Of a stretch of DNA of 64,000 nt, positions 9,461 to 55,687 are shown one piece after another. The notes under the pieces are model-generated. The model was given only the letters and a program-made list of their open reading frames with translations, was not told where the DNA came from and ran no database searches. Numbering within the stretch: the stretch's first letter is position 1; each line of letters starts with the position of its first letter. The position numbers and the translations under genes are program-made. This DNA is from Heloderma charlesbogerti (lineage: Eukaryota; Chordata; Lepidosauria; Squamata; Helodermatidae): contig JANEZZ010001570.1 of NCBI GenBank assembly GCA_026122225.1, forward strand, positions 1,984,001-2,048,000. The letters run 5' to 3'.

Positions 9461-10313
9461 TTGAGGGAATGATATTAAAGGCAAAACTGAAGTACGTTGG
9501 CCACATAATGAGAAGACAGGATACCCTGGCCTGGAGAAGATGCTGATGCTAGGGATGGCTGTGAATTTCTCCACGAATCTCGGGGAGGCCGAATGCCAAT
9601 GCATTTGGCCCCCCGAAATTGTTGGTGAAATTCTCCGCCCCCCTGCCCCCCCGGGATGGGACTTACCTCCCTCGAATGTCCCTCTCGGCGGCGGGTCCCG
9701 GCGGCATTTCGGTGGGGGCGGGGGCAGCAGCCGGTCTTCCGACCGGCCACCGCCGCCGCCATTACAAAGTGAATGGGGGGAAAAAAACGCATGTGATAGG
9801 CTACGTAACGATTAACGTAGCCTATCACGGCTGACTGTGGAAATCTAGCCGTGATAGGCTACGTTAATAGTTACGTAGCCTATCACGTGTGGGGGGGGGT
9901 TTTCCATTCACTTTTGTATTTCGCGGCCGGGGAGACGGGGCGCTTCTCCCCAGCCTGAATTTTGGCCGGGCGAGGTGGGGCACCTCCCCCCCCGGCCTGA
10001 ATTTCGGCCGGGCAAGGCGGGGCGCCTCCCCCCCAGCCTGAACTTCGGGGGGAGAACCGAAGTGCCTCCCCCCCACCACGAAGCAAGCTGCGGGACCAGG
10101 TAAGTGACTTTCGTACATCACTAGCTGATGCTAGGGAAAGTGAAAGGCAAAAGGAAGAGGGGCTGACCAAGGGCAAGATGGATGGATGATATTCTGGAGG
10201 TGACGGATTTGACCTTGGGGGAGCTGGGGGTGGCGATGGCCGACAGGAAGCTCTGGCGTGGGCTGGTCCATGAAGTCATGAAGAGTCGAAAGCGACTGAC
10301 TGAATAAACAACA
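9461..10313 (+). mobile_element. RTE/BovB-related LINE 3' fragment, split by a hAT-type element
   Basis: The two flanks, 9461-9549 and 10132-10313, rejoin into the 3' end of an RTE-type element. They match the region of BovB that encodes the HLMRR stretch through to the C-terminus and end with ATGAAGAGTCGAAAGCGACT plus an AAC/AAA tail. Wording differs clearly from the three other BovB copies (for example CATAATGAGAAGACAGG), so this is a more diverged subfamily. It is interrupted by the element at 9550-10123, whose 8-bp duplication GCTGATGC marks the break. Confidence 0.75.
9550..10123 (-). mobile_element. hAT-like palindromic element, copy A (574 bp)
   Basis: It begins TAGGGATGGC and ends CATCACTA. 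It is flanked by a perfect 8-bp target-site duplication, GCTGATGC (9542-9549 and 10124-10131), the length typical of hAT transposition. Read on this strand it has the R arm (TTTCTCC near the end, minus-strand splice-donor consensus at 9661-9667). Two perfect hairpins follow, GTGATAGGCTACGT and ACGTAGCCTATCAC around 8-nt loops (about 9792-9887). The L arm comes last, with three GGCCGGGCGAGG-type GC-rich units and a plus-strand GGTAAGT at 10099-10105. It lacks the central ATGGCGGC palindrome of copy C. There is no transposase frame, so it would depend on enzyme supplied in trans. Confidence 0.9.
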
Positions 10314-10529
10314 AAAATATCAATATTAATCTTGAAAATATAACAAAATCCCAATAAACACACCAAGGTGCATCTCACCACAGTTCATCCTATTCCCATG
10401 CAGGAGACTCCCTTTCTGTTCCCTATGTATACTTATGGTTTTGCCTGCATGCACACAAAGGGATGAAAAAGTATCCCCTGCTTGCATTTTTCTTATTTCC
10501 ACCTTCTAGATTTATGTTGTGTATGTTTC
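10314..10529. other. Short unique spacer
   Basis: Nothing recognised between the RTE fragment and the candidate conserved block. Confidence 0.3.
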
Positions 10530-10930
10530 TAGAATCATATGCCATCTAGTGATCATAGAAGCTATACATTACATGCTGTGGTGTGCTTATGGCAGCAACA
10601 GAGAGATCTTAACTCCATCAGGCAATTACAGAGTGATTGGTGTCGGCTATAACTTCTTATCATCATCATAACGATCTGCTTAATCAATCAGTGCAAAACA
10701 AGCTGATTTCTCTCTATTGATCCAAATCCGCTTTGCATCCCACAGAAACCTGATTCTGATAAATGATCGTACAAAATGAAGTTTATGTGATAACTGCTGT
10801 TGTTTGGTGGCTGACATCTCGATTGTTCCTGTGCTAATACATCATTGTAGTGTATTTTCTTCAGAGAACAGAATGACTCCCATGACATTAACTGAAGTTA
10901 AGTATCTATGTAACTTGCCTCATTACCAGG
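10530..10930. promoter_or_regulatory. Candidate conserved non-coding block
   Basis: Non-repetitive sequence with several homeodomain-like words close together: GGCAATTACAGAGTGATTGG (about 10621-10640), GCTTAATCAATCAGTGC (10678-10694) and TCTGATAAATGATCG (about 10755-10769). This resembles a developmental enhancer in word content only. Conservation and activity are unknown. Confidence 0.2.
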
Positions 10931-11289
10931 TATTCTCAAGAAAATAAATGTTATGTAATCTACAACTTTTGCTTTCAAATCTGTTGTCTTGGGGCAACTA
11001 GTGATTTCTTTGGCTATGAGCTAGAAAATCTATTCTTCTGAAAAGAAAGGGCATTTGAATGAGGAGCAGCTCTTTTCCTCCTGCAAGAACCTTCTTCAGG
11101 AATCTTAAATAAGGAAAAGTAACTACATCGTGGGGGGGGGGGTCTTCCACATGCAGAAACCTGTTGAAGTTAATTGTGTACATGATTTGTACAAGAATTT
11201 GTGCATTTGCAGGTAGAACTCAGAAGGTATGAGGTTTTGTTTTCTTGCAGTCCTCTGAATCATAGTCTATGTCTGTAGTATTTTGTCTA
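10931..11289. other. Unique sequence, nothing recognised
   Basis: Contains a run of ten G at about 11132-11141 but no repeat family or exon. Confidence 0.35.
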
Positions 11290-11560
11290 AAGTGATCATA
11301 TGAACACAAAAACAGGACTCCAAAGGCCCATCTAGTCTAGTTTCTTGTTGTCCATTGTGGCCAACCAGATGACACCAGGGAGTCTGGGAAGCTCCCAAGC
11401 AGGACATGAAGGCAGTAGCTCTTTGCTGTTCTCCGGCAACTGGTATTTGGTGGCATACGTCTCTGTACCTGGAGGGCATGTAGCCATCCATAATTACTTG
11501 CCACTGCTGCATTTATCCTTCCTTAATTTGTCTAATGCCCCTTCTTAAAGCCATCTAAAC
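11290..11560 (+). repeat. Old interspersed repeat (CCATCTAGTCTAGT ... GGCCAACCAGATG type)
   Basis: It carries the ordered words GGCCCATCTAGTCTAGTTTC, GTGGCCAACCAGATGACACC, GGGAAGCTCCCAAGCAGGAC and CAACTGGTATTTGG, ending near GTAGCCATCCATAATTA. From memory this word order is a widespread reptile repeat. I cannot assign it to a class with certainty; a LINE 3' end is most likely. Confidence 0.5.
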
Positions 11561-11749
11561 TAGTAGCTATCACCACATATTGTGACAGCCGATGACAGAG
11601 ATCCATCTCTCTTTAACAACAAAAATCTGGACCATAAAAAAGATATGACAATAGATGAAGGGTGTTAGTACACACAGGTGTTAATCCGCTGTATATACTT
11701 TCAATTTCATCACAGAACTGAGCTCTGAGCACTACACAAAGAGAGTTAT

Positions 11750-11960
11750 TGGTTCCAACATATATCAAAATGCCTTAAGAAATGAATATTTAAATGCAAA
11801 TTTGCATGTGGATTTTTTAAAATAAAAAATGCAGATTAATGCACAGGGTGGTTTATCAATAGATGCATGCAAATGTGACATGGACCAGAAATGTATTTAT
11901 TTATTTGTACCCCACCTTTCTACCAAGAAAAATTGCACTATTGAGAAATAGATCGTTTCA
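11750..11960. repeat. Old AT-rich repeat abutting an L2-like 3' end
   Basis: 11818-11885 repeats the CAGATTAATGCA ... GATGCATGCAAATGTGACAT word pair of the 6890 repeat. It is followed at 11893 by TATTTATTTATTTGTACCCC, the reverse-oriented 3' tail style of L2-like LINEs. Both pieces are old and the borders approximate. Confidence 0.35.
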
Positions 11961-12439
11961 GCAAACCCTACCTCAGTATCAATCCTTTATGCTAACGTTC
12001 TCCATATTCTCCATATTCCACAAGCAATGTACAAATTGGGCCTCAACTCATGAATGGCATGATGACAATTTGCAACCAGCTTGTCAGGTCAACTGATCCT
12101 GGAACATTCTTAATTGGCTGCAGGGGATGGTCCAGAGACCATCAATTCTCTCTTCCCACACCTTTTACTACCTGCATAAACATACTACAAAAATCTGACT
12201 CAGAAAGTTTTTCTTTCCTTGAGGAAGCCCAATTACAGTGGTAGTAAGGAATATCTTTAATAATAAAGACGTCATTAGAATGATCAGGAGACAGACAAAG
12301 CATCCCACTTTCCTCTTCTTCTTTTTAAAAAAGAAAGTTTGCCCTAGTAAAGCTCTTGTATTAATCCACTTCTATTCTAGTCACAATTGTTCTAACTCTT
12401 AACAGGACTTTCCTCTTTGCTTCCATTTAAACTTGATTT
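11961..12439. other. Unique sequence, nothing recognised
   Basis: No open frame with domains and no repeat signature. Confidence 0.35.
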
Positions 12440-12900
12440 TCCCCTATTAGGTGAAGGATGCTCAGACAGCATCACATTAATTTCAGTGGACACTGAGCTT
12501 TATCTAATTCAGCAAGCCAGCCTTTGTTAATTAGGCCTCACAGGACGAGCGATAGTGAAGAACGCCTCTAACTGTCATTGATCAATACCCGCAACACAAG
12601 CAGTTTCAGCAGTCAATTACTTCTGTTTCAGAGAAGGAATAAAAAAGTAGCCATTCTTGTTAGCAATCTCTGCTTTTCCAAAATCACTAACTCCCCCCGC
12701 CCCCTGCCACTCCTCTGTTTTACCCCATCACGTTCAGCCAGTTGCATGAAAACAAGATTTTTCTGTCTCTGGTATTACTGCTGTACATTTGCTTCCAAAA
12801 GAGGTTCATTGCAGTCCAGAAAAGAATACTATTCAGCAGTATCTCACACTTTCCAAAGTCTGGGGTGTGATTGATGGGGGAGTCAGCAGTCTGACAAAGC
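12440..12900. promoter_or_regulatory. Candidate conserved non-coding block
   Basis: Unique sequence with clustered homeodomain-type words: CACATTAATTTCAG, CTTTGTTAATTAGG, CTGTCATTGATCAATACC and CAGTCAATTACTTC, all within 12475-12625. This is suggestive of an enhancer. The 98-codon plus-strand frame at 12578 has no recognisable domain. Confidence 0.25.
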
Positions 12901-13839
12901 TGCAAAGATTAGTTGTTTGATCCTGGAGACATGGGCTCTGTTTGATTAGGCCCCAACAGAATACGTACATGGAAACTAATTTAATGTAATAGTGCCCTGC
13001 AATTCTTCAGAGCATGATTGGAGGGTGGGTAGGGGAACAACACAAATGGAAAGCTTTTATTTGCAGGCTGTTTAGTGGTTTGTATATGAACAAGTGATCC
13101 AACAATGTCTTGTTCCACCTCTGCTGCCAGTGTGGTGGATATTTTAACAAGATGCTGTCCACTTTGCTCAGCATTCACGTGTGCAATTTTTATTTGACCA
13201 AAAACAAAACAAAAGCCAGGCATAACAGCCTAAATATAGTACCACTGTGACATGTAGTAGACAATGGCAGTTTTAGCAAGCTCTAAAGTATACTCTCTAG
13301 GAAGAGAAACAGAAGGAAGCAGTATTTTCCTTTTTAAAAAATCCCCCCCCCAAAAAAAAACAGTTCAGGAAAAGACAAATGTAGATTCCTCTATCATTTC
13401 ACCATAACCAGAGCAAAATCCTTTTCCATCACCCACTATTTGCACAGCTATAAAAAATGAGGTTCTGTACAAATGAACAAGGAAGAAGATTTAGCCAGTG
13501 TTATCATTAATCAAAATGGCTGTGTCGCTGAAGCCAGAGACTCAAAGGCTTAATTCCAATTGGAACGAGGAGAGAGGAGGGAAGAATGTCTGCATCCCCA
13601 CATGCAGAGATATGAACCTCAAGAGTGGAATCCCAAATGATTTGGATGAGCATGGAAAGGGGAAAACATGGCTTAGCAGGGAGGGAACATGGATGCATTC
13701 CCTCCATTCCTCTGCATCAGTCCCGTTATTGTGATTGGGACTTGGGCAAGTGTAAGAGGAAACCAGGTATAGCTCTAATTTATTTTGACAGGGCTTGCAC
13801 AGAAAAGTATCCAGTAGATTGTGTCCATTCTCAAGAACT
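12901..13839. other. Unique sequence, nothing recognised
   Basis: No repeat family recognised. The overlapping 60-110 codon frames at 13498-13880 run on both strands and show no domain. Confidence 0.4.
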
Positions 13840-14340
13840 GATATAGTGGGAATAACAGAAACCTGGTGGAATGGGAACAACTAGTGGGATATGGTTATCT
13901 CTGAATACAAACGCTATAGGTAGGAAAGGGAAATGTGTGTCGGGGCCAATGTCACTGTGTACATCACAGAGGGCACAACGTCAAACAAATGGGACACCTC
14001 AAAAGGGGCAGACTCACATCATTGTTGTGAGTGACAACACCAGGCCCCCCATGTGATGCAGTATTGGAGACATGCTATTGTCCCCTTGACCAAAGTAGGG
14101 TGATCTTGAGATGGAGAATGAAATCAAGGAGGCATCCAAAGCAGAAAGTCCTGTATTAGTGGGTGGCTTCAATTACCCTCAGACTGCATAAATGCATATT
14201 CCAGTCATGGCAAAGAGATATAGCAAGATAGATACCGTAAGTGACTGTGCCTAGAACAGTTGCTCACGTTCTTATGAACTGTAGACTCTAAACAAGAAGG
14301 CTACGGAGGGCAAACATGCCAAAGCTGTGTTGTTTGAGAT
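13840..14340 (+). mobile_element. Old CR1-like LINE fragment, endonuclease region
   Basis: Translating across frames gives the AP-endonuclease style of CR1-like ORF2: a GGAATGGGAACAACTAGTGGGA stretch split over frames, then GTATTAGTGGGTGGCTTCAATTACCC, which reads as VLVGGFNYP against the usual V(L/V)GDFN(Y/F)P. Many frameshifts and stops show it is ancient. Limits are approximate. Confidence 0.45.
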
Positions 14341-15360: not shown

Positions 15361-15362
15361 TT

Positions 15363-23024: not shown

Positions 23025-24782
23025 TCATAGTCTTCTCTTCTCAAAGCTAAACATGCCCAGTTCTTTCAGTCTCTCCTCATAGGGCTTTGTTTCCAGTCCC
23101 CTGATCATCTTTGTTGCCCTCCTCTGAACCCTCTCCAGTTTGTCTGTATCCTTCTTAAAGTGTGGTGCCCAGAACTGGACACAGTAGTCCAGATAAGGCC
23201 TAACCAGTGCTGAGTAGAGGGGAACCAGTACTTCCCAGGATTTGGAAGCTATGCTTCTATTAATGCAGCCCAAAAGAGCATTTGCCTTTTTTGCAACCAC
23301 ATCACATTGTTGGCTCATATTCAGCTTGTGATCGACAACAATTCAAAGATCCTTCTCACTTGTAGTGTGGTTGAGCCACGTATTCCCCATCTTGTAACTG
23401 TGCATTTGGTTTATTTTTCCTAGGTGCAGAACTTGGCATTTATCCCTATTAAATGTCATTCTATTGTTTTCTGCCCAGCACTCCAGTCTATCCAGATCAC
23501 TTTGAATTTTGTTTCTGTCTTCCAAAGTATTAGCTATCCCGCCCAATTTGGTGTCATCTGCAAATTTGATCAGCATTCCCTGCACCTCCCCCTCCAAGTC
23601 ATTCATAAAAATGTTGAAGAGCACTGGGCCCAGGACTGAGCCCTGCGGTACCCCACTCATTACCTCTCCCCAGTTTGAGAAGGTCCCATTGATAAGCACT
23701 CTTTGAGTCTGATTCTGTAGTCAACTGTGGATCCACCGGATCGTTGTTTCATCTAGCCCACTTTGAGCTAGTTTGCTCATCAGGATATCATGGGGCACTT
23801 TGTCGAAAGCTTTGCTGAAGTCGAGGTATATGATGTCTACAGCATTCCCACGGTCTACAAGGGAGGTTACTTGATCAAAAAATGAGATCAGATTTGTCTG
23901 GCAGGACTTATTTTTGACAAATCCATGTTGGCTTCGAGTAATCACGGCATTGTTGTCAAGGTGCTTCCAGATGGATTCCTTTATCATCTGCTCCAGAATT
24001 TTCCTAGGGATTGATGTCAGACTGACTGGTCTGTAGTTCCCAGCTTCCTCCTTTTTAACCTTTTTGAAGATAGGGACAACATTAGCCCTCCTCCAGTCAT
24101 CTGGCACTTCCCCCGTCCTCCATGATTTCTCAAAGAGAATAGACAGTGGTTCTGAGAGTTCTTCTGCCAGTTCCTTTATAACTCTAGGATGCAGTTCATC
24201 TGGCCCTGGAGATTTGAACTCATTCAAAGTAATTAGGTGTTCTTTGACCATATGCCTATCGATCTCAAGCTGCAATCCTGCCCCTTCAGCCTGTACTTCG
24301 CCTTTGCCAGGGGGGTCATAGACCCTCTTTTGGGAGAAGACTGAGCCAAAGTAGGAATTGAGCACCTCTGCCTTTTCTTTGTCATCTGTTATCATTTTGC
24401 CATTCTTATTTAATAGCTGAACCACCATTTCTTTCCTCTGCCTTTTACTATGCACATAGCTGAAGAAAGCCTTTTTGTTGTTTTTAGCATCCCTTGCTAA
24501 CCTCAGCTCATTCTCAGCTTCAGCCTTCCTGATGCCATCCCTGCAATTCTGTGCTATCTGCCTGTACTCTTCCTTTGTTACTTGGCCTTCTTTCCACTTC
24601 CTATATGTGTCCTTTTTTGTTTTCAGGTCATCCCTAAGCTTTTTGTGAAGCCACATTGGCTTCTTCTGTTGTCTTCCACCTTTTCTTCTTGTTGGAATTG
24701 CGTGTGATTGTGCCTTGAGAATTCCTTTTTTAAAAGCTCCCATCCATCTTGGACTCCTTTTCTCACTATCATTGCTTGCCAT
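23025..24782 (-). pseudogene. CR1 ORF2 reverse transcriptase, several stops
   Basis: Three consecutive blocks cover most of the RT. 24782-23721 (353 codons) has ANVVPIFKK, NYRPVSLTSIPRKILEQ, HGFVKNKSCQTNLISFF and IIYLDFSKAFDKVPHDIL. 23720-23343 has GVPQGSVLGPVLFNIF and the catalytic FADDTKLGG. 23330-23025 has the C-terminal thumb-like and [15 protein letters not shown] region. The first two blocks are parted by a TGA where a tryptophan codon is expected (after RWIHS). A further TGA follows EKDL, and a frameshift lies near 24780. The enzyme cannot be made. The endonuclease domain is deleted. Confidence 0.92.
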
Positions 24783-24884
24783 GGGACCTTACTGATCATT
24801 GTTCTGAGTTTATGAAAATCAGCTTTCCTAAAATCCAGGGTACACATTTGACTACACTCGGCTTTTGCTTCCCTTAGAACGTCT

Positions 24885-26551: not shown

Positions 26552-27170
26552 TAGGAGTGCACGAAAGTCACTTACCTGGTCTTGCAGCTTTTCGCGGTGG
26601 GGGGGAGGCGCTTTGCTGCTCTCCCCCCGAAGTTCAGGCCGGGGGGGGAGGCTTCCCACCTCGCCCGGCCGAAATTCAGGCCGGGGAGGAGGCGCCTCGC
26701 CTCGCCCGGCTGCGAAATAAAAAGTTAAAAAAAAAAACACGTCCCCGTGATGGGCTACGTGACGATTTACGTAGCTTATCACGGTTAGATCTCCAAAGTC
26801 AGCCGTGATAGGCTACGTAAATCGTCACGTAGCCTATCACGGTTGACTTTGCAAATCTAGCCGTGATAGGCTACGTTAATCGTCACGTAGCCTATCACGG
26901 GGGCGTGTTTGTTTGTTTTTTACTTTTATTGGAATGGTGGCAGCGGCAGCCGGTCGAAAGATCGGCTGCCGCCCCCGCCCCTGACGAAGACCCGACGTAC
27001 CGCCGCCGGGACCCGCCGCCGGGAGGGACATTCGGGAAAGGTAAGTCCTGTCCCGGGGGGGTGCGGGGGGCGGGGGGGCAGAGAATTTCTCCCCGAAACT
27101 TCTTCGGGGGGCCAAACACGTTGGCGCTCGGCCCCCCGAAGTTTTGGGGAGAAATTCTCCGCCAACCCTA
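26552..27170 (+). mobile_element. hAT-like palindromic element, copy B (619 bp) inside CR1 ORF1
   Basis: It starts TAGGAGTGCACGAAAG and ends CCAACCCTA. The perfect 8-bp duplication GAAGAAAT (26544-26551, 27171-27178) marks the insertion. The L arm has a minus-strand splice-donor consensus at 26570-26579 (ACTTACCTGG) and two to three GC-rich GGCCGGG units. Three hairpins of the GTGATAGGCTACGT type follow (about 26749-26900). The R arm has a plus-strand AAAGGTAAGT with GTAAGT at 27041-27046, then a CCCCGAAACTTCTTCGGGG hairpin. The central ATGGCGGC palindrome of copy C is missing, so this is an internal deletion derivative. Long open frames here (up to 205 codons on the minus strand, 26876-27493) are GC-composition artefacts. 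Confidence 0.93.
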
Positions 27171-27250: not shown

Positions 27251-27750
27251 TAGGGATGGCGGAGAATTTCTCCCCGAAACTTCGGGGGGCTGAGCGCCAA
27301 TATGTTCAGCCCCCCGAACAAGTTTCGGGGAGAAATTCTCTGCCCCCCCGCCCCCCGCGCCCCCCCTGGGACGGGACTTATGTTTGCCGAATGTCCCTCC
27401 CAGTGGCGGGTCCGGCCGGCGGTTCGGCGGGTTTTCATCCGGGGCGGGAGCAGCAGCCGGTCTTTCGACCGGCTGCCGCCCCCGCCATTCCAATCAAAGA
27501 AAAAAAAATGCCCCCGTGATAGGCTACGTGACGATTAACGTAGCCTATCACGGCTAGATCTGCAAAGTCAGCCGTGATAGGCTACGTAAATCGTCACGTA
27601 GCCTATCACAGGTGACTTAAAAAAAAAAAAAAAAGCACGTATGGATAATGGCGGCCCCCATAGGGAGCCGCCATTCCCGTTCCTTATTTGGTGGCTGTAG
27701 TCTACGTAAAGATTTACATAGACTACGGCGAAAATAAGGGCAACGCTATT
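27251..27750 (-). mobile_element. hAT-like palindromic element, copy D, cut at the palindrome tip
   Basis: It begins TAGGGATGGCGGAGAATTTC directly after CR1 ORF1 sequence. It holds the R arm, two GTGATAGGCTACGT hairpins, an A-run, the ATGGCGGC hairpin (about 27648-27676) and one side of the central palindrome. It stops at GGCAACGCTATT (27739-27750), inside the 5-nt spacer that forms the exact centre of dyad in copy C (28547-28551). CR1 RT sequence follows at once. The other half, the L arm and roughly the CR1 endonuclease region are gone. The donor consensus of this R arm has decayed. The missing right end means no duplication can be checked. Confidence 0.9.
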
Positions 27751-28078
27751 ATAAATCATGGAGGACAGGTAAAGTGCCAGATGACTGGAGGAGGGCTAAT
27801 GTTGTCCCTATCTTCAAAAAGGGCAAAAAGGAGAAACCTGGTAATTACAGACCAGTCAGTCTGACATCTTACAATCCAATTCCAAAGAAGGGCAATGCCA
27901 AAGAGTGTTCAAACTACAGCACAATTGTGCTCATTTCACATGCCAGCAAGGTTATGCTCAAAATCCTACAAGCTAGGCTTCAGCAGTATGCGAACCGAGA
28001 ACTACCGGAAGTACAAGCTGGGTTCCGAAGAGGCAGAGGAACTAGAGATCAAATCGCCAACATTCGCTGGATCATGGA

Positions 28079-29047
28079 TAGGGGTGGACGAAAGTCACTT
28101 ACCTTTTCTCGCAGCTTGTTCGCGGTGGGGGGGAGCGCTTCGCTGCTCCCCCCGCGAAGTTCAGGCCGGGGGGGGGAGGCTTCCTGCCTCGCCCGGCCGA
28201 AATTCAGGCCGGGGAGGAGGCTTCCCGCCTCGCCCGGCCGAAATTCAGGCCGAGGAGGAGGCTTGCCGCCTCGCCCGGCCGCAAACGCGAAAGTTAAAAA
28301 AAAAAAAAAAACGCCCCCTGATAGGCTACGTGATGATTCACGTAGCCTATCGTGGCTAGATCTGCAAAGTCAGCCATGATAGGCTACATGAATCGTCACG
28401 TAGCCTATCACAGGTGACTTTAAAAAAAAAAAAAAGCGCGTACGCAAATGGCGGCCCCCATAGGGAGCCGCCATTCGCGTTCCTTATTTAGTTGCTGTAG
28501 TCTACGTAAATGTTTAGGTAGACTACGGCGAAAATAAGGGCAACGCAAATAGCGTTGCCCTTATCTTCGCCGTAGTCTACGTAAACATTTACGTAGACTA
28601 CAGCGACCAAATAAGGAACGGGAATGGCGGCTCCCTATGGGGGCCGCCATTATCCGTACACACTGGTTTTTTTTTTAAGTCACCCGTGATAGGCTACGTG
28701 ACAATTCACGTAGCCCATCACGGCTGACTTTGCAAATCTAGCCGTGATAGGCTACGTGAATCGTCACGTAGCCTATCAGGGGACTTTTTTTTTTCTTTTA
28801 TTGCAATGGCGGGGGTGGCAGCCGGTTGAAAGACCGGCTGCCGCTCCCGCCCCGCTCGAACACCCGATGAACCGCCAGCTGGACCCGCCGCCGGGAGGGA
28901 CATTCAGGGACGGTAAGTCCCGTCCCGGGGGGGGGGGTGCAGGGGGCGGGGGGGTTGGAGGATTTCTCCCCAAAACCTGTTCGGGGGGCCAAACACGTTG
29001 GCGCTTGGCCCCCCGAAGTTTCGGGGAGAAATTCTCCGCCATCCCTA
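28079..29047 (+). mobile_element. hAT-like palindromic element, copy C (969 bp), the fullest copy
   Basis: It starts TAGGGGTGGACGAAAG, ends GCCATCCCTA and has a perfect 8-bp duplication, ATCATGGA (28071-28078, 29048-29055), inside BovB. Layout: L arm 28079-28311 with three GGCCGGGGAGGAGGC-type units and a minus-strand donor consensus (28097-28103). A palindrome of about 470 bp follows (28313-28782, centre 28549). The R arm 28783-29047 has a plus-strand donor consensus, GTAAGT, at 28913-28918. Each palindrome arm (about 235 bp) contains two GTGATAGGCTACGT hairpins, an A/T run, an ATGGCGGC hairpin and a GTAGTCTACGTAAA hairpin. Copy A and copy B lack the palindrome core. No transposase is encoded. 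Confidence 0.95.
28313..28782. repeat. Giant nested palindrome in copy C
   Basis: The two halves are reverse complements over about 235 bp each with only scattered mismatches, around a 5-nt spacer (28547-28551, between GGCAACGC and GCGTTGCC). Each half holds further self-complementary units: stem TAGGCTACGT / ACGTAGCCTA, stem GTAGTCTACG / CGTAGACTAC, and ATGGCGGC / GCCGCCAT. As single-stranded DNA or RNA it could fold into either one long hairpin or a row of small ones. Confidence 0.93.
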
Positions 29048-31385
29048 ATCATGGAGAAAGCAGGAGAATTCCAGAAAAACGTCTATTTCTGCTTCATTGA
29101 CTACGCTAAAGCCTTTGATTGTGTGGATCACAACAAACTGTGGCAAATTCATAAAGTGATGGGAATACCAGACCACCTTACCTGTCTCCTGAGAAACCTG
29201 TACGAGGGTCAAGAAGCAACAGTAAGAACCGGACATGGAACAACCGATTGGTTCCAAATTGGGCAAGGAGTACAACAAGGCTGCATATTGTCACCCTGCT
29301 TATTTAACTTATATGCAGAGTACATCATGAGAAACGCCGGATTGGATGAATCACAGGTCGGAATTAAGATTGCCAGGAGAATTATCAACAACCTCAGATA
29401 CGCAGACGATACCACCCTAATGGCAGAAAGCGAAGAGGATCTCAAGAGCATCTTGCTGAAGGTGAAAGTGGAGAGTGCAAAAGCTGGTTTGAAACTCAAC
29501 ATTAAAAAAACGAAGATCATGTCATCTTTCCCCTTCACTTCCTGCTGGCATATAGAAGGGGAAGAAATGGAAGCAGTGACAGATTTTACTTTCTTGGGCT
29601 CCAAGATCACCGCAGATGGTGACTGTAGCCATGAAATTAAAAGACGCTTGCTCCTTGGGAGGAAAGCTATGGCAAACCTAGACAGCATAGTAAGAAGCAG
29701 AGACATCACCTTGCCGACAAAGATTCGTATAATCAAAGCTATGGTTTTCCCAGTATGGCTGTGAGAGCTGGACTATAAGGAAGGCTGAGCGCCGAAGAAT
29801 TGATGCTTTCCAACTGTGGTGCTGGAGAAGACTCTTACGAGTCCCCTGGACTGCAAGGAGGTCAAATCAGTCCATCCTAAAGGAAATCAACCCTGAGTGC
29901 TCCTTGGAAGGACAGATACTGAAGCTGAAGCTGAAATATTTTGGCCACCTAATGCGAAGAGGAAACTCTCTGGAAAAGACCCTGATACTGGGAATGACTG
30001 AAGGCAAAAGGAGAAGGGGATGGCAGAGGATGAGATGGCTAGATAGCATCACCGATGCAATGAATATGGACTTGAGCATGCTCTGGCTCTGGGAGAGAGC
30101 GGAGGACAGGAAGGCCTGGCGTGCTATGGTCCATGGGGTCATGAAGAGTCGGACATGACTGAACAACTGAACAACAACAACAACAGTCTGACATCAATCC
30201 CTGGGAAAATCCTGGAGCAGATTATAAAACCATCACTCTGTAAGCACTTTGAAAACAATGCAGTGATTTCTCGAAAGCAACATGGATTTGTCAAGAACAA
30301 ATCCTGCCAGACGAATCTGATCTCATTTTTTGATCAAGTAATCTCCCTTGTGGACTGTGGGAATGCTGTGGATGTAATATACCTCGACTTCAGCTCAGCA
30401 AAGCTTTAGACAAAGTGCCCCATGATATCCTGATCAGCAAACTAGCTAAAAGTGGGCTAGGTGAAACAAGGGCTCAGGGCTCTTCAACATTTTTCAACAT
30501 GATTTGGATAAGGAGGTGCAGGGAATGCTAATCAAATCTGTAGATGTCACACAATTGGGCAGGATAGCTAATACCACAGAAACAAAATTCAAAGTGATCT
30601 TGATAGGATGGAGCACCAGGCAGAAAACAACAGATTGAATTTAATAGGGATAAATTCCAAGTTCTGCAACTAGAAAAAAGAAATGAAATGCACAGTTACA
30701 AGATGGAGGATATTTGGCTCAACCATACTACATGTGAGAAGGACCTTCTGATTATGAGCCAATAATGTGATGTGGCTGCAAAACAGGCAAATGCTCCTTT
30801 GGGCTGCATTAATAGAAGCATAGCTTCCAAATCCTGTGAAGTACTAGTTCCCCTCTACTCAACACTGGTTAGGCCTCATCTGGAGTACTGTGTCCAGTTC
30901 TGGGCACCACACTTTAAGAGGGATGCAGACAAATTGGTGAGGGTCAGAGGAGAGAAACAAAGATGATCAGGGGACTGGAAACAAAGCCCTATGAGGAAGA
31001 GACTGAAAGAACTGGGCATGTTTAGCCTTGAGAAGAGAAGACTGAGGGGAGATATGATAGTGCTCTTCAAGTGTGTGAAAGGTTGTCACAGAGAGGAAGG
31101 CCAGGATCTGTTCTCATTCATCCCAGAATGCAGGACACAGAATTGGGCTCAAGTTACAGGAAGCCAGATCCTGGCTGAACATCAGGAAAAACTTCCTGCC
31201 TGTTAGAGCAATATGACAATGGAACCAATTACCTAGGGAGGCTCTCCCACACTGGAGGCATTCAAGATGAAGCTGGACAGCCACCTGTCAAGGATGCTTT
31301 GATTTGGATACCTGCATTGAGCAGGGGGTTGGACATGATGGTCCTATAGGCCCCTTCCAACCCTGCTATTCTGTGATTCTATGAA

Positions 31386-43875: not shown

Positions 43876-43889
43876 TTACCATAATCCAT

Positions 43890-44226: not shown

Positions 44227-44240
44227 TTACCATAATCCAT

Positions 44241-45104: not shown

Positions 45105-47055
45105 TCGCTGATTGAAAGGCACAAATATTGCTTGGAGGGACAGGGGATGCGACCCTCTTGATTCTCTTGGACCCCTCAGTGGCTTTCAGTACCATTTACC
45201 ATGGTTTCCTTCTGGATAAGCTGCTCCTACTTGGCCAATTCCAGAAGGTGGTGCTGGGGGATTATTGCTCTGTCCCTTATGCCATGGGCTTCCATGCCAT
45301 GGGCTTCCAAATTTTATGCCATATTTTATCCCCAATTCTGTTCAACATCTACATGAAACCACTGGGGGAAGTTATCCGGGGAAGTTGCCTGAGGTGTCAC
45401 CAATATGACAAAGACACCCATCTCTTTCTCTTCTTTTCATCAAATCCAGGTGAGGCAGTGGGTGATCTGAATCAGTGCCTGGGTGCAGTAATGGACTGGA
45501 TAAGGGGCAATACACTGAAACTCAATCCAGACAAGATGGAGGTACTGTTAGTGGCTTTTTCATCTGCCCTACTAAGTGGTGTTCAGCTTGTTTTGGAGGG
45601 GGTTCCACACCCACTAAAGGATCACATTCATAGTGTGGGGGTGTTCTTGGATCCAGCATTGTCACTGGAGGCACAGGTGACCTCTGTGGCACAGATCCTC
45701 TTATGTCAGTTTAAGCTGATATACCAACTATGACCTTATGGGAGAGAGATAGCCTAGCTACAGTTATCCATGCTCTGGTAACCTCTTACCTGGATTACTG
45801 CAATGCACTGTATATAGCACTGTCTTTGAAAATGATCCAGAAACTTCAGCAGGTCCAAAACAGCGCAACAAGGTTGTTGACAGGTACTAGTTGGTATGAA
45901 CATATTATGCCAGTGCTTTGTGATCTCCACTGGCTTCTGGTCCATTTCCTGGCCCAATTCAAAGTGCTGGTATTAACTTTCAAAGCCCTAAACAGCTTGG
46001 GGCCAGGGTACCTGAAGGATCATCTCCTCCCATATATATTTGCCCAATCCTTATAATCATCTTCAGAGGCCCCCCCTTGCAAATGAAATGAGCTAGGTGT
46101 AGGGATGGGCGGATTCCCTACCTGCCGGTCCATGGGGAATCCACCCACAGGGGGGAAGGAGATCCATTCCTCCCCCTGGAATCCTCTTTGGCTGGCTCTG
46201 CTCTGCGGAGATTCCATGGAGCCACTGGACAGCTCCGAAGCACCAGCAATACGGCCGCCATGCTGTATCGCTGGCTGAGGGGTATTGACTTACTGCAGAT
46301 GCAAATGGCATCCAGGACTTCATTTGCAGCCATAAAGGTCTTAAGGTAAATGCAGCTGTAAATGGCTGCATTTAGCTTAAACTAAGACCTTTATGGCCGC
46401 AAATGGCATCTTGGATGCCATTTGCGTCCCTGCTTTTCATTCACACGATAGGCTACACAAATATTTGCATAGCCTATCGCGTGAAAAACAGGGCCACAAA
46501 TGGCATCCATTTACAGCTGCATTTACCTCAAACTAAGACCTTTACAGCTGCAAATGGCATCCTGGATGGCATGTGCGTCCGCAGTCAGTCCCCTTCAGCC
46601 AGCAATATGGTATGGTGGCCATATCGCTGGCAATCCGGAGCCAGAGGATCTGGTCAAAGAGGATTCCACGGGGAGGCGGAGGTAAGTGTTCCGTTCTGCC
46701 ATGGACTCATTAGAGTCCATGGTGGAATTCTCTGCCATCCCTAGCTAGGTGGCTAAAAAAGACAGGGCCTTTTCAGATATGGCACCCTGGTTGAGGAATA
46801 CCCTCCCCAGAGAGGCTTGCCTGTTGCCTCCTTTGTTGTCTTTCAGTCCTTCAATTTTTGTTTTTAAATGTCTTACTGTATTTTTATATCTTTATGCTGC
46901 TGCTGGCTTTTACTTTGTTTTTATAATGTAGTTTCAAACTTTTAAAAGTTTTATATTATGTTTTATCATGTTCTGTTTTATCATTTTAACTGTTGTGAAG
47001 TGTCCAGAGACTTTCAGCCATTGGCTGGTATAGAAATGTAATAAAAACAAACAAA
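45105..47055 (+). mobile_element. L2-like LINE copy, split by a hAT-like element
   Basis: It has RT, C-terminal region and 3' UTR, with 46100-46743 inserted near the end of ORF2. 45128-45733 encodes LLILLDPSVAFSTIYHGFLL, LSPILFNIYMKPLGEVI, an RT box decayed to YDKDTHLF (YADDTQLY in the 49.6 kb copy) and LNPDKMEVLLV. 45730-46056 encodes SYLDYCNALY and the LHWLLVHFLAQFKVLVLTFK block. The 3' UTR resumes at 46752 (GACAGGGCCTTTTCAG) and ends near 47055 in an AAACAAACAAAC tail. Confidence 0.85.
46100..46743. mobile_element. Divergent hAT-like element, copy G (644 bp)
   Basis: It starts TAGGGATGGGCGG, ends TCTGCCATCCCTA and has a perfect 8-bp duplication, GCTAGGTG (46092-46099, 46744-46751), in the L2-like LINE. 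The internal sequence differs from copies A-F but the plan is the same. There is a short ATAGGCTA ... TAGCCTAT hairpin in the middle (46447-46479), long inverted repeats of CAAATGGCATCC and CTAAGACCTTTA words around it, and a plus-strand GGTAAGT at 46681-46687 close to the right end. No transposase frame. Confidence 0.9.
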
Positions 47056-47185: not shown

Positions 47186-50100
47186 GTGGTCTCTGATGTG
47201 CATGTGCAGTCCCCTAACTTATTGGTGTTGGGGGACTTCAACGTACATTCAGAGACCATCCTCATGGGGGCACCTGGGGACTTCATGGAGACCATGGCTT
47301 CCTGGGAGCTGTACCCTATTCCAACTGGGCCCATCCATGTACCTGGTCATGCACTAGACCTTGTGTTTGTTTCTGGAGAAGCAGGGAGTAATCTGGAAGT
47401 CAGGGGTATATCCACCACGCTCTTGTCATGGTCAGATCACTATCTGGTGACGTTGGACTTCTCAGTTCCACATCCCCTCTGCAGGAGTGGAGGACCCTTT
47501 AAAATAGTCTGCCCCAGGCATCTTATGGATCCGAATGGATTCTTGAACGCGCTTGGGGATTCTCTGGTGCACGCAAATGGACACTCGGTTGAGACCCTGA
47601 TGGGTGGCTGGAATGCCGCAATCACTGGGGCATTAGATCAGGTGGCTCCAAAATGCCCCCTCCCCCTGAACAGGGTTCAAACTGCACCATGGTTGAATCC
47701 GCAGTTACAAGCCCTGAAACAGGAGGTGAGATGGCTAGAGTGCCAGTGGCGGAAGTCTTGCTCCAAAGACAATCAGACACGGGCTAGAGCTATATGCCTA
47801 TCATGTGGCAGTGAAGGCAGCAAAAAAGGAATATTATGCTGCCTCTATCACATCTGCAGAGTGCTGTGCCAGGAGGCTGTTCCAAGTGGTCCGGAGCCTG
47901 GTCGGTTCAGTTGCTCCGGAACTACTGGAGCATTCTAAGGCCTCCTGTAAGGCCTTGGCAAGGCACTTTCTGGATAAAATTGATCAGTTCAGGAGTGTTA
48001 TTCCATATGCCCTGGATACAGTTAGTGAGCAAGAGGTGGCCTGTGGCAAACCGGTTTTGTGGGATCAGTTCCAGCTTCTTCCTTCGGATGAAGTGGACAA
48101 GGTGCTTTCATCTGTAAAGCCGACCATCTGCTTACTTGATCCTTGCCCATCTTGGCCATTATGAGCTGCAGAGAGAGACTGGACGAGGGGATCAGAGTGG
48201 TGGTGAATGCCTCCCTTGAGGAGGGAGTGATGCCATCAGCCCTCAAGGAGACAGGGATAAGACCGCTCTTAAAGAAGCCCTCCTTGGATCCCCAGATTTT
48301 GAACAACTTTTGCCCAGTCTCAAATCTGCCATTTTGGGGCAAGATCATTGAGCGGGTGGTGACGATACAGTTGAAGGCACACTCTTGGAAGAAGCCGATT
48401 ATCTAGATCCATTTCAATCAGGCTTTAGGCCTGGGCATGGGTAGGGATGTATGAAAGTCATTTACCTTTTAACGAAATGTGATTTGAGGTGGGGGGGAGG
48501 CGCTCCGTCCCTCCCTCCGAAATTCTGGCCAGGGGGAGGTGCTCCATCCCTCCCCCCCGAAATTCTGGCCGGGGGGGAGGCACTCCGTCCCTCCCCCCCC
48601 GAATCCTGGCCGGCTGGGTCCGTAAATGGCGGCGGCCATAGCCGCCGCCGTTTGCGTCCCTGCAGTCAGCCGTGATAGGCTACATAAATGTTTACATAGC
48701 CTATCACGGCTGAGTAAAAAACAAAAACAAAAAACCGCACATATGCAAGTAGACGCTACGCTATTTGCGTTCCCCTTATTTTCACAGTAGTCTACATAAA
48801 TGTTTACGTAGACTAGATGTGCCAAAATAAGGAACGCAAATGGCGGCGCCAATGGGTGCCGCCATTTGCGTATGTGCAGGGTTTTGTTTTGTTTTTTACT
48901 CAGCCGTGATAGGCTACGTAAACATTTACGTAGCCTATCACGGTATTTTTTAAAAATCTAGCCGTGATAGGCTACGTAAATCTTTACGTAGCCTATCACT
49001 TTTGTTGTTGTTGTTGTTTTTTACTGGAAATGGCGGTGGCGGCAGCCGGTCAGAAGACCAGCCGCCATAGCCGCCGCCGCCGCTGCCACCGCACCGCCGC
49101 CACACCACCGCCGCCGCACCGCCGCCGCAGCCGCCACCTCCAGGAAGATTCGCCCAAGGTAAGTTCCGTCCCCGGGGGGGGGGGTGGCAGACCGTTTCGC
49201 CACCGATTTCGGGGGGCCGAATGCGCTGGCGAAATTCTCTGACATCCCTAGGCATGGGACAGAAATAGTCTTGGTCGCCTTGGTGGATGATATGAGGAGG
49301 GCTTTGGGTAAGAGTGAATGCTCCTTCCTTGTTCTCCTCGACTTCTCAGTGGCTTTTGATACCATTGACCACAGTATCCTCCTGGACTGCCTGGAGGGGT
49401 TGGACATTGGATACACAGTATTATGGTGGTTCTGGTCCTTTCTCTGCAGCAGGTACCAGAGGGTAGCACTGGAAGAGGAGTCGGACCCGTGGCTGCTCAC
49501 TTGTGGGGTGCCACAGGCTTCCATCTTCTCCCCAATGCTATTTAACATCTATGTGAAGCCGCTGGGGGCTATCATCAGGAGGTTTGGGGTGTGGTGTCAT
49601 CACTATGCGGATGACACACAGCTCTACCTCTTGTTCAAATCTTCACCAGGGTTGGCTGTAGAATGAATCCCTGTCCAAATATCTGGAGATGGTGAGTGAC
49701 TGGATGGGGAGAAATAAGCTGAACCCTGACAAGACTGAGCTACCTTTGGTGGGAGACAAGAGGAGGTTGGGGGATGCTGATCTGGTGTTGAATGGGATAC
49801 AGCTACCCTTGAAAGACCAGGTCTGCAGCCTGGAGGTCATTTTAGACTCCCAGCTATCCATGGAGGCTCAGGTGTCAGCTGTGAGCTGGACAGTATGTAC
49901 CAACTCAATCTGATACAGCGGCTGTGCCCCTACCTTCCCAAGCATCTGCTCCCATTGGTAGTACATGCCCTGGCCTCTTCTCATCTAGACTACTGTAATG
50001 CGCTCTACGTGGGGTTACCCTTGAAGACAGTTGGGAAGCTGCAGCTGGTGCAGAACACGGTGGCTATCCTGATTAAAGGCAGCTGCCGGTGTGATCACAT

Positions 50101-50449: not shown

Positions 50450-50554
50450 GGTATTTTTAAGCAATGTTTTAACGTGTAATTTTACTGTTTTAAATTTTAC
50501 TGTTGTACATCGCCCAGAGTGGCCAGGTGACCGGCTAGATGGGCAGTTAAGAAA

Positions 50555-50557
50555 ATA

Positions 50558-50599
<42 letters not shown>

Positions 50600-50613
50600 G
50601 ATAGATAGATAGA
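50555..50613. repeat. (GATA)n microsatellite
   Basis: About fourteen GATA/AGAT units with one interruption, following the L2-like 3' end from which it probably grew. Confidence 0.95.
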
Positions 50614-51143: not shown

Positions 51144-51477
51144 TAAAAAAAAGGTAAAGGTGTCCCCAACCAGTCGTGTCCGACTCTAGGGTGTGGTGCT
51201 CATCTCCATTTCTAAGCCGAAGAGCCAGCGCTGTCGGAAGACGCTTCCGTGGTCATGTGGCCGGCATGACTGAACACCGAGGTGCATGGAGTGCTGTTAC
51301 CTTTCCCGCCGAAGCGGTACCTATTTATCTACTTGCAATTTCTTGCTTTCAAACTGCTAGGTTGGCAGGAGCTGGGACTGAAGACGGGAGCTCACTCCAT
51401 CACGCGGCACTCGGGTCTCGAACTGCTGTCCTGCTGACCTTCTGGTCTGCAGTTCAGCATCTTAACCACTAAGCCAA
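51144..51477 (-). mobile_element. Sauria SINE copy 3, antisense
   Basis: The reversed tail AAAAAAAGGTAAAGGTGTCC is at the left and the tRNA-like head ends at CTTAACCACTAAGCC on the right, slightly truncated. Its LINE-derived 3' motif GAGTCGGACACGACTG is identical over 16 bases to the BovB copy at 6.44 kb. No certain duplication was read. Confidence 0.88.
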
Positions 51478-51677
51478 TAGTTGGGGATTGTGATGATGTG
51501 ATCACAATATAATATTTTTTATTATATAAGAGGTTCAATGATGTGAACGTCTTATATAATAAGAATGGTTTGTTTTCCATCCATTTCATTTTGCTAGGCA
51601 CTTTTAAGTATTAGTCACTGGTTTTTATATAGGGATATCTTTTTATAGAGCTAGTCCTTCCTTTGTCTATAACAAAG

Positions 51678-51713
<36 letters not shown>

Positions 51714-52064
51714 CTCCTCTGTGACCCAGCTAGCTGCTGAGATGCTACATAATGCAGTCAACAAGAAAAATGCTCTTTTCCTCTAAACCCTCTTTTTTGC
51801 TTTCCTTTCCCTGTGGGAAGGAAGCTCCATTTTAGGGGGTGGGGTGGGGAAATGCATTTAAAAAGAACAGTAGAGGAAGAGGGGAGAAGTTTGCACAGGA
51901 TGTGTTCTGCTTCAGAACACTCATATAAAATGGCTTAGCTTACAAAGCCATTTGAAAATATTTGCAATCGTTTTGACAGTCAGGACTATAGAAGTGGGTA
52001 GACACAATCCAGCCCGAAGTTAAACACATTTCAGTCTCATTGATTTCTATGGAAGAAGCAAGCT
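51478..52064. other. Unique sequence with a (TA)n microsatellite
   Basis: An (AT)n tract lies at about 51679-51711. The remainder is unrecognised AT-rich DNA. Confidence 0.5.
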
Positions 52065-53830
52065 TATAGGTTACCAAGTTGTTTCCAGGCCTAATTCAAA
52101 TTGTGGTTTTGACCTTTAAAACCCTAAACAGCTTAGGACCAGGGTACCTTAAGATCTGTCTCTTCCCAGATGACCCTGCCCAAATGCTGAGGTCATCACT
52201 GGAGGCCTTGCTTCGTATCATCTGGTCTCAGAGGTACAGCAGCTGGGTGGAAAGAACAGAGCCTTTTCTGGCATGTTCTGATAGCAGATGATGCAGCCAA
52301 TTTGCTGAAGCTAAGCTGACCTCTCAGTGGCTTTTGATACCATCAACCATGGTATCCTTCTGGGATGACTCTCTGAGTTGGGAGTGGGAGGCACTGCATT
52401 GCAGTGGTTTCGCTCCTACTTGGAGGATTGACTCCAGAAGGTGGTGCTTGGAGAATGTTGCTCTGCCCCGTGGATTCTCCAGTATGGGGTCCTGCAGGAG
52501 TCAGTTTTGTCCCCCATGCTCTTCAACATCTACATGAAACTATTAGCTGTGGTCAACTGGTCATCCAGAGTTTTGGAGTGCCTTATTATCAGTATGCTGC
52601 AGCTCTACTTCTCCTTTTCATGTTCATCAGGTAAGTCTGTGGATGTGCTAGATCGGTGCCTGGCTGTGACAATGGGCTGGACGAGGGCTAATAAACTGAA
52701 CTTCAATCCAGACAGATGAGATGCTGTTAGTGGGTGGTTCCCTGACCAGATGAAGGGTGCTCAACCTATTTTGGATGGGGTTGCAGTCCCCCTGAAGAAG
52801 CAGGTTCATAGCTTGAGGGTTCTCCTTGAGGCTCAGGTGGCTTCAGTAGCACAGACTGCTTTCTACAAACTTTGGTTGGTGGTCTAGCTACACCCCTATC
52901 TGGGCAGGGATAACCTGGCTTCAGTTGTCTATGCTCTGGTAACCTCCAAGTTAGATCACTGTAATGCACTGTACGTGGGGCTTCCTTTTAAGATGGTTCA
53001 GAAGCTGCAGCTCATGCAAAATGTGGCAGCCAGATTGATAATGGGGACTAGAAGGTATGCACATGTAAGACCAACTCTGGCCCACTTGCACTGGCTGCCT
53101 CTATGCTTCCAAGTTTGACTCAAAGTGCTTTATAGTTTTAATCTATAAAGCCCTACACATCTTGGGACCACAATACCTGATGGAGAGCCTCTCCTGAAAT
53201 GAACTTGCCCATACTCTGCATTCAATACCTAAGGTCCTCCTCCAGGTATCTCTTCCGAGGGAAGTTCAGAGTGCAGCAATGAGGGAGAGGCCTTCTCAGT
53301 GGTGGCCCTCCACCTGTGGAACGATCTCCCCGATGACGCCCACTTGGCACCAACACTGTTGTCTTTTCAACACCAGGTTAAGACCTTCTTCTCTCAGGCA
53401 TTTGGCAGCACATGATGAGTTTTTAATTGGTCCTGGATCTGTTTTTGGTTATGACTGACTGTTTAAAGTTGTTTTTAGTTATATGTTGTCTTTGTACATA
53501 TTGTCTCTGTGTTTTATCTACATGGCTTTTAAACTTTGTATATTGTATTTTAATGTTTTAAATATGTAAATATGGAACACCCTCCTGAAGGAGGTTTTCC
53601 GGGCTCCACCTCTGCTTTTTCAGCAAAGAAAACACATTTATTCCAGTCATCAGTTATTCCAGTGTGCTTTGAGATGCCTTTCAATTTGCACTGCATTTTT
53701 AATGTTGGTGAGGTGATTTTATAAATTTTACTGCTATCAAGCTTTTCAAATTATTTGTATTTGTAGATTTTGTTAGCCACTGTGAACATTTTTAAAATGG
53801 AAAAGTGGGATAAAAAACACATACCTACAT
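52065..53830 (+). mobile_element. Two adjoining L2-like LINE fragments
   Basis: 52065-52310 is a C-terminal piece (TTAGGACCAGGGTACCTTAA region). 52320-53830 restarts in the RT (GTGGCTTTTGATACCATCAA, CCCATGCTCTTCAACATCTA) and goes through the C-terminal region to a 3' UTR ending near 53830 (TTGTTAGCCACTGTGAACAT). The catalytic block is frameshifted, so the YADD box cannot be read in frame. Both are old. Confidence 0.75.
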
Positions 53831-53833
53831 ACA

Positions 53834-53849
53834 GAGGGAGGGAGGGAGG

Positions 53850-53880
<31 letters not shown>

Positions 53881-53882
53881 GT
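53834..53882. repeat. (GGGA)n / (GA)n microsatellite
   Basis: GGGAGGGAGGGA units pass into a pure GA run directly after the L2-like 3' end. The 76-codon frame through it is an artefact. Confidence 0.95.
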
Positions 53883-53949
53883 TTGCGTGTGTACAAGTAA
53901 GTGCATGTTTGAATCTGGCCTATCAGAAATTATTTGTCCCATCAGAAAT

Positions 53950-54375
53950 GAATCTGTCCCATCAGAAAATGATTTCACTTTGGCTAGATTCGATGCCTAG
54001 TATTCTCTGAACATCAGCTTGCTGCTCGTCTCTCCATAATTTACGCTCACATTTGCAAGTGCTCTTCATTTTGCATGAATAGGGAAATTGCACAAAACAA
54101 ACAGCGATTGAATGGAAAAGTTGCCCAAACAATTCCCAGATTTGCACAAATTTCCCTGACAGACTAGAGCATGGGTGATTTAAAATGTGTGCATTTTGAG
54201 AAAGTTGTACATTTCTCAAGTATGCATTTTGTGGATGTGAAGACAAGTTCAGGAAGTTTTGAACATTTTCAGAGAAAATACACTCCTATTTGTGTTTGCA
54301 TTTGGGACCGTGAATGGGGCATTTTTGAGTGATTTGCAAAGTGAAATGAAATCCTCATACATTCCTAGTGCTGAG
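53950..54375. repeat. Old AT-rich repeat ending CATACATTCCTAG
   Basis: Recurring GTGCATTTTGAG-, TTTGCACAAA- and TATGCATTTTG-type words and a CATACATTCCTAG end suggest an ancient, protein-less DNA transposon. Left border and duplication unclear. Confidence 0.3.
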
Positions 54376-54829
54376 GCCCTACATGGGCACACCCGTGGGG
54401 CCTTTCATGTGGCTGCTTAATGCATGGACAGCAGGGGGACTTTCCAGTGTACACTTAATTCACTGGGTAATGAAGTGTACCCCTTCATGGATCACTGCCT
54501 TGTTGTGGCAAAGGGGCTTGCGTAACTCAGTGAAGCCATAAGCTATGCCATGTAGGGCCACCCAAGACGGACAGGTCATGGTGGAGAGTTCTGACAAAAT
54601 GTGGTCCACTGGAGAAGAAAATGGCAACCCACTCCAGTATTCTTGCCAAGAAAACCCCATGGAACGTATCACAAGGCTAAAAGATATGACGCCGGAAGAT
54701 GAGCCCCTCAGGTCAGAAGGTGTCCAATATACTACTGGGGAAGAGCAGAGGGAATTTCCAAGTAGCGCCAGAAAGAGTGAAGCGGCTGGGCCAAAGCCGA
54801 AAGGATGCTCAGCTGTGGATGTGTCTGGT

Positions 54830-55687
54830 CACGGGGGCGTTTTTTTTTTTTAGTTTTATTGGAATGGTGGCGGCGGCAGCCAGTTGAAAGATCGGCTGCC
54901 GCCCCCGCCCCTGACGAAGACCCGACGAACCGCCGCCGGGACCCGCCGCCGGTAGGGACATTTGGGAAAGGTAAGTCCCGTCGCGGGGGGGGGTGTGCGG
55001 GGGCGGGGGGGTGTGGAGAATTTCTCCCCGAAACTTGTTCGGGGGGCCGAACACGTTGGCGCTCGGCCCCCCGAAGTTTTGGGGAGAAATTCTCCGCCAA
55101 CCCTAGGCTACGTTACGATTAACGTAGCCTATCACAGCTAGATTTGCAAAGTCAGCCGTGATAGGCTACATAAATCATCATGTAGCCTATCACGGGTGAC
55201 TTTAAAAAAAAAAAAAAAAAGCGCATACGGATAATGGCGGCCCCCATAGGGAGCCGCCATTCCCTTTCCTTATTTGGTCACTGTAGTCTACGTAAAGATT
55301 TACGTAGACTACAGCGACCAAATAAGGAACGCGAATGGCGGCTCCCTATGGGGGCCACCATTTGCGTACGCGCTTTTTTTTTTTTTTAAGTCACCCGTGA
55401 TAGGCTACGTGATGATTTACGTAGCCTATCATGGCTGACTTTGCAGATCTAGCCGTGATAGGCTACGTTAATCGTCACGTAGCCTATCACGGGGGCGTTT
55501 TTTGTGTTTTTTTACTTTTAATTTCGCGGCCGGGCGAGGCGAGGCGCCTCCTCCCCGGCCTGAATTTCGGCCGGGCGAGGCGGGAAGCCTCCCCCCCCAG
55601 CCTGAACTTCGGGGGGAGAACAGCGAAGCGCCTCCCCCCCACCGCGAAAAGCTGCGAGACCAGGTAAGTGGGTTTCGTGCACCCCTA
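54830..55687 (-). mobile_element. hAT-like palindromic element, copy F (858 bp), one arm inverted
   Basis: The right end (TTTCGTGCACCCCTA, 55687) is normal and is followed by GTCTGGTG. GTCTGGT also stands just before 54830, giving 7 of 8 bases of a duplication. The left part 54830-55106 is an R arm in reverse orientation: it starts at an internal hairpin edge (CACGGGGGCG) and its terminus CCAACCCTA lies inside the element at 55098-55106. From 55107 on come hairpins, the ATGGCGGC / GTAGTCTACGTAAA palindrome (about 55232-55370), more hairpins and the L arm with GTAAGT at 55664-55669. This fits an in-place inversion of one arm. Confidence 0.9.

Follow-up and report, generated by a model that had tools for sequence, protein, structure and literature searches.

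The 64,000-nucleotide stretch of the Heloderma charlesbogerti genome analysed here (contig JANEZZ010001570.1, positions 1,984,001 to 2,048,000; hereafter the window) contains short elements with TAGGGRTG/CAYCCCTA ends, the fullest of which carries a nested palindrome between two different arms. Our analysis indicates that they are hAT-type miniature inverted-repeat transposable elements (MITEs) that rely on a transposase supplied in trans by a large autonomous hAT lineage, of which near-identical 9.4-kb copies are still present. On the basis of sequence comparison we give this reading a probability of about 80%. The palindromic elements are a variant of known hAT MITEs and not a new kind of element.

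The fullest copy in the window, copy C (28079-29047, forward strand; all positions of copies A to G are window coordinates), consists of a left arm, a palindrome and a right arm. It is flanked by a perfect 8-bp repeat (ATCATGGA) and is inserted in retrotransposon reading frames that are presumably BovB-like. The left arm (28079-28297, +) has the TAGGGGTG end, an ACTTACC motif ~20 nt in, and 41-bp GC-rich units that look hairpin-like by eye. The nested palindrome (28298-28799), initially annotated at about 470 bp, measures 502 bp and is 89.5% complementary; its folding lies at z -48 relative to shuffled sequences, and none of 100 shuffles folded as well. The right arm (28800-29047, +) contains the GGCAGCCGGT hairpin, an outward GGTAAGT, a terminal hairpin at ~28957-29037 and the CATCCCTA end. 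A module scan of 17 copies or part copies and two parent elements gave the order H1-sL-H1-G-H2-centre / centre'-H2-G'-H1-sR-H1 for copy C, in which H1 and H2 are hairpins and sL and sR are the left- and right-type spacers.

A search of the genome for the hAT dimerization domain returned 871 candidates. All of the 150 that were scored lay above the cut-off, and 17 of these rows have open frames of 873-908 codons. Two of the 17, on contigs C838 and C2955, were followed out to both ends and are called parents A and B here. They are 9,465 and 9,391 bp long, are 97.97% identical across 9,378 aligned columns, and have the ends TAGGGATG...CACCCCTA. One is flanked on both sides by AAAAAAAG and is nested in another MITE with its own repeat, GCAGCTAG; the flanks of the other, ATTTGTTC and CTTTGTTC, match at 7 of 8 bases. 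An 879-codon hAT transposase frame is open in both. In the one parent scanned against Pfam, this protein matches Dimer_Tnp_hAT (PF05699, 1e-16) and zf-BED (4e-5), with no P-type domain at E 0.1. It aligns with Hermes at the D, D and E positions, which we take to be the catalytic residues. The absence of a visible transposase, as initially annotated, therefore holds for the window but not for the genome: no transposase frame was found in the MITEs, and a scan for a known hAT motif in 264 kb (the window plus 200 kb of flanking DNA) gave no convincing transposase and one weak match.

The parents carry further frames. A 118-aa Myb/SANT-type frame in the opposite direction (PF13837, 6e-13 in the scanned parent) is open in both and 96.6% identical between them; a protein search with this piece found no relative at E 0.001 (19 candidates). 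A 230-aa frame is also present in each, with no Pfam match in the scanned parent. The closest named relatives of the transposase are proteins from Sceloporus, Paroedura, Eublepharis and Sphaerodactylus, with 36-42% identity, as would be expected for a squamate host. Judging by their Pfam accessions, three of these four presumably contain SCAN and two of the three also KRAB, and they may be host genes made from hAT transposases. All ten other loci sampled match the parent transposase, and several carry interrupting MITEs; the older parent copies show roughly 78-85% amino acid identity to the parent transposase in their longest matches. At one such locus (L031:983-1496), a MITE with perfect repeats (CCAGGAAC) disrupts an older copy of the transposase gene. 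For a third long-frame row (C356), the 1.5 kb sampled upstream has no similarity to the parent. A minisatellite with ~115-bp units lies between the parent right end and the transposase (L039, ~6726-7148).

The MITEs and the parents are connected through their left ends. Positions 1-539 of copy C are 91.7% identical to the left end of parent A (1-540) and 81.9% identical to that of parent B (1-498), which has a shorter repeat array. Positions 403-724 of copy C match parent A 540-218 in inverted orientation with 86.5% identity. The left arm of copy C is thus homologous to the parent left end, as are the left half and centre of its palindrome up to position 539, and the right half is the same region inverted. 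That the MITE left end descends from the parent, rather than the reverse, is the direction we infer. In parent A, the left end also contains a forward-inverted-forward triplication of H2 and the centre, which suggests strand switching at these hairpins.

The assignment to the hAT superfamily proposed initially is supported by the 8-bp target duplications together with the transposase, with its BED and hAT-dimerization domains, of a parent that shares the left arm. We tallied 20 perfect duplications, 18 from the 264 kb and two on another contig; the perfect pairs at 12598, 53981, 55163, 106849, 221805 and 222013 (264-kb coordinates) were omitted. The Ac-type hAT target consensus is nTnnnnAn, and among the 20 duplications T occurs at position 2 in 6 and A at position 7 in 8. 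For the Buster-type consensus nnnTAnnn, as given in the accessible text of PMC3517528, T at position 4 is found in 7 and A at position 5 in 8. G at position 1 (12) and C at position 8 (9) are also present. The parents exceed the 2.5-5 kb stated for hAT elements in the accessible part of PMC3942097; we take length as descriptive here, not defining. Long true terminal inverted repeats of the Foldback or Galileo sort are absent, as the arms differ and the long inverted repeat is internal.

Elements of this kind are abundant. A search of the 264 kb for TAGGGRTG...CAYCCCTA pairs with matching 8-bp flanks, tolerating small mismatches, found 29 pairs (24 perfect), compared with 2 (0 perfect) in the reversed sequence; 18 of the 24 stay after removal of six chance-like ones with poor ends or no structure. 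Genome-wide, TAGGGRTG occurs 291,192 + 290,337 times on the two strands, versus 126,908 + 126,400 when the pattern is reversed. A longer, 25-base pattern from the left end has 21,292 + 20,983 = 42,275 matches (control, 0). The 264 kb contain 9 exact matches to this longer pattern and 22 when up to 4 mismatches are allowed, with none in the reversed control. Crude scaling suggests ~1e5 copies in the genome. Sequence resembling the window copies makes up 7.2% of the 264 kb, a share that cannot be transferred to the whole genome because the exact pattern is about twice as dense here as in the genome on average (9 matches versus 4.8 expected). On a further contig, copies at C1:38058-38914 and C1:44020-44845 have the perfect repeats GAAGAAAT and ATAGAACC; at two other loci, copies inside L030 and L031 have CTCATAGG and CCAGGAAC. 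Among the matches listed for contig G000:C1, left ends look unevenly distributed, denser past ~5 Mb.

Structure is common among these pairs. We folded 22 of the 29 pairs with 8 shuffles each, leaving out six (12598, 55163, 60563, 97408, 221805 and 222013) and skipping 189668 as too long. Twenty of the 22 reach a z-score of -4.7 or below and contain an inverted repeat, which is weak in 180841; in 18 of the 20, the strongest such repeat has its centre at 0.40-0.53 of the total length. In pair 98316, the strongest repeat is part of an element nested within it. The remaining two, 106849 and 53981, have no inverted repeat and look like chance pairs. Since the structured pairs include copies with quite different ends and interiors, the palindromic layout belongs to a group of related families, not to one. 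Another old palindromic repeat is present at 60563-62517 (264-kb coordinates), and no transposase was noticed there. By eye, an older, AT-richer palindromic repeat with GGGATGTCA-like ends lies within another repeat at L012:1130-1660; it is possibly an earlier generation of the same layout.

The same diversity is seen in the window, where the initial annotation described seven copies of one family with shared ends. Related ends or sequence are present at all seven sites. Five are two-ended (A, B, C, E and F) and have perfect 8-bp duplications, as annotated; D has one end and G is rearranged. Copy A (9550-10123, -; GCTGATGC) has both arms and two H1 hairpins without the palindrome core. Copy B (26552-27170, +; GAAGAAAT) has both arms and three H1 hairpins, one recognised by eye, with a left-type and then a right-type spacer between them; its core is missing between like H1 hairpins. 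Both copies thus keep their arms without the core, as first noted. Copy D (27251-27750, -) is a half copy comprising only the right half, ends at the palindrome centre (position 470 of copy C), and shows no target duplication by eye. Copy E (46100-46743, +; GCTAGGTG) shares the ends and has one H1-type hairpin and a palindrome of its own, but it shows no match to copy C longer than 60 bp and so represents a different family. Copy F (48442-49250, +; GGCATGGG) is a diverged subfamily with a similar part order, ~72% identical to copy C across the longest match. Copy G (54830-55687, -) has no central hairpin, and an in-place inversion of its right end (54830-55104) puts the CAACCCTA end at an internal position, near 55104. 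The start of the copy is not TAGGGRTG; the flanks still match over 7 bp (GTCTGGT), as the earlier 7-of-8 reading had it. The ends are shared in kind, with deviations at the start of B (TAGGAGTG; its end is CAACCCTA), at the end of A (CATCACTA) and at the start of G.

The shorter copies fit a derivation by deletion between like hairpins or at the palindrome centre. The centre and one H2 are absent from copy G and from the copies at 3865 and 94390, copy B has the order H1-sL-H1-sR-H1, and copy A has H1-sL-H1. In L030 and L032 most of the left half is missing; in L031 the right half is missing, together with part of the right arm. The proposal that modules are gained or lost as units is consistent with these copies as far as loss is concerned, but no independent gain of a module was seen among the 17 copies or part copies. 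In one further element (85650; L010:5650-6190), two left ends face each other and the 8-bp flanks do not match.

The two arms, initially described as unlike, do differ in most of their sequence, but they have a common plan. The terminal 8 bp are common to both. In a set of 24 elements, an outward [AC]TTACC lies 18-21 nt inside the left end in 16, and an outward GGTAA[GT] lies 58-131 nt inside the right end, likewise in 16; both are present in 14. None of the 24 has an inward ACTTACC-type motif within 260 nt of either end. In most of 15 right-end folds, a hairpin sits between the right end and the motif. GGTAAGT fits the splice-donor consensus. We considered this role and dropped it, as the motif points outward at both ends and the parent frames run inward from each end; a protein-binding site would fit better. 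A single short subterminal motif is present at both ends of Herves, according to the accessible text of PMC3143072. By analogy, ACTTACC and the terminal 8 bp may be bound by the transposase.

Comparison of palindrome halves provided insights into the history of the layout. In five of six palindromes, a half is closer to the same side of another copy than to its own other half. For instance, copy C and N179 score 0.948 between left halves and 0.960 between right halves, compared with 0.908 and 0.936 within the copies. The palindrome therefore appears to have been mostly inherited and not remade, and its formation anew in each copy is disfavoured for these five; N43 is the exception. Left halves mostly carry AGATCT and GCAAATGG and right halves AGATTT and GATAATGG, with exceptions such as D, N43 and L032. 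A tree built from 21 half-cores places the parent with the left halves of C, N179 and N85 (84/83, not starred) and the right halves of C, N179 and L030 in a separate group (96/90). The halves of G and N3, which have a common central deletion, cluster with one other right half (95/87). A single origin of the palindrome, followed by local homogenization or remaking, is plausible from these comparisons.

Several observations weigh against the derivation of the MITEs from this parent lineage, or against parts of the history outlined above. The right arm of copy C (725-969) has no match in either parent, and the 264 kb and the other loci used for comparison contain no match to the right 400 bp of the parent; by eye, only the first ~16 bases of the parent right end resemble F-type right ends. 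These two parents are therefore not the direct source of the whole MITE: both share its left arm but not its right. The AAAAAAAG duplication is of low complexity, and that of the second parent matches at only 7 of 8 bases. The longest ATG-started transposase frame is 722 aa in one parent and 847 aa in the other. Support in the half-core tree is weak, with stars on only 4 of 18 inner branches, and left and right halves do not form single clades. The left and right halves of N43 group together (100/99), as if remade or homogenized. Finally, the module scan overlooks diverged modules (for example, one H1 of copy C and one of copy B), so an absent label alone does not prove a loss.

The palindrome may have arisen either by template switching or by a deletion within a parent that had long inverted repeats at its ends. 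A plain internal deletion would need no snap-back: if older parents had the core at both ends, in the order left arm, core, inverted core and right arm, deletion of the genes would join the repeats, and the young parents would have changed their right end later. We regard this as a serious contender, at somewhat less than even odds. The order left arm, core, inverted core, right arm is seen in both C-type copies and the diverged F-type copies, indicating an old layout, and the separation of left halves grouped with the parent from right halves in the tree agrees with it. However, both parents read to their ends, a sample of two near-identical elements, lack an inverted core and a MITE-type right arm. 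The parent left end also extends beyond the centre into inverted H2, which a simple repeat junction would not yield.

That extension could also be read the other way, with the palindromic MITE as the older element. Recombination with a MITE would then have given the present parent its left end, comprising the arm, one palindrome half, the centre and a portion of the inverted half. The grouping of the parent end with the left halves of the C subfamily is in keeping with such a capture, as is a parent right end unlike the MITE right arms compared. We nevertheless consider it unlikely, as the grouping has a support of just 84/83 and two near-identical parents were read to their ends; MITEs are commonly taken to derive from their parents, and a capture would run against this view. 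A more speculative idea, to which we assign a lower probability still, sees the parent as a two-gene hAT in which the Myb/SANT protein would act as an accessory in transposition or replication by binding the repeated H1/H2 dyads; MITEs with mirrored sites would then be preferred substrates. If true, this would explain the wide spread of the layout and the palindromes in most copies examined. Long palindromes are hard to assemble, but an assembly artefact or chance repeats can practically be dismissed, since related copies on other contigs have their own perfect 8-bp repeats and the controls are near zero or zero.

In the mechanism we favour, MITEs would be mobilized in trans by the parent transposase, which may recognise the 8 terminal bases and, near each end, the outward ACTTACC motif. 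An ancestor would have acquired the palindrome in one or a few events, possibly through snap-back or template-switch copying in gap repair after excision. Its hairpins could then serve as deletion hot spots in replication, with later trimming at these sites. If confirmed, this would mean that MITEs can arise by mirroring subterminal sequence of a parent, not solely by losing its middle. With tens of thousands of copies and a probably young parent side by side in one genome, the elements form a natural series for reading how nested palindromes are built and trimmed.

Other repeats in the window include retrotransposon reading frames, some of them long, at 4349-6457, 27738-30158 and 55746-57749, which we take to be BovB-like (RTE) from their protein sequence; copy C lies inside one of them. 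LINE reading frames at 23343-24788 are presumably CR1-like.

Our literature search, with most subscription papers outside its reach, returned no paper on this layout, and five module strings appeared in no paper. PIF/Harbinger elements also combine a transposase and a Myb/SANT gene in one element, but have a different transposase family and a 3-bp target duplication. If confirmed, the parent would extend the known hATs by a large element that has a Myb/SANT-type second frame. Its transposase aligns with that of Hermes at the catalytic positions, and the ACTTACC motif proposed here parallels, in its placement, the one short subterminal motif at both ends of Herves, as far as the accessible part of PMC3143072 describes it; the 9.4-kb length, the second frame and the motif sequence differ from both. 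Judging from the accessible portions of PMC3517528 and PMC4168063, hAT MITEs and restructured transposon ends are already known. Mar, a Drosophila hAT MITE, likewise has 8-bp duplications and short terminal repeats, is non-coding, and is described in the available text as a relic of a possible full-length parent (PMC3517528). It is AT-rich and 610 bp long with 11-bp terminal repeats, whereas the elements here have GC-rich arms and a nested central palindrome, at a crudely scaled ~1e5 copies. Galileo, in the available text of PMC4168063, has 7-8 bp duplications and terminal repeats of variable length that may hold tandem repeats and recruit internal sequence. It is a P-superfamily element with long true terminal inverted repeats, whereas the elements described here are of hAT type and carry their inverted part internally, between different arms.

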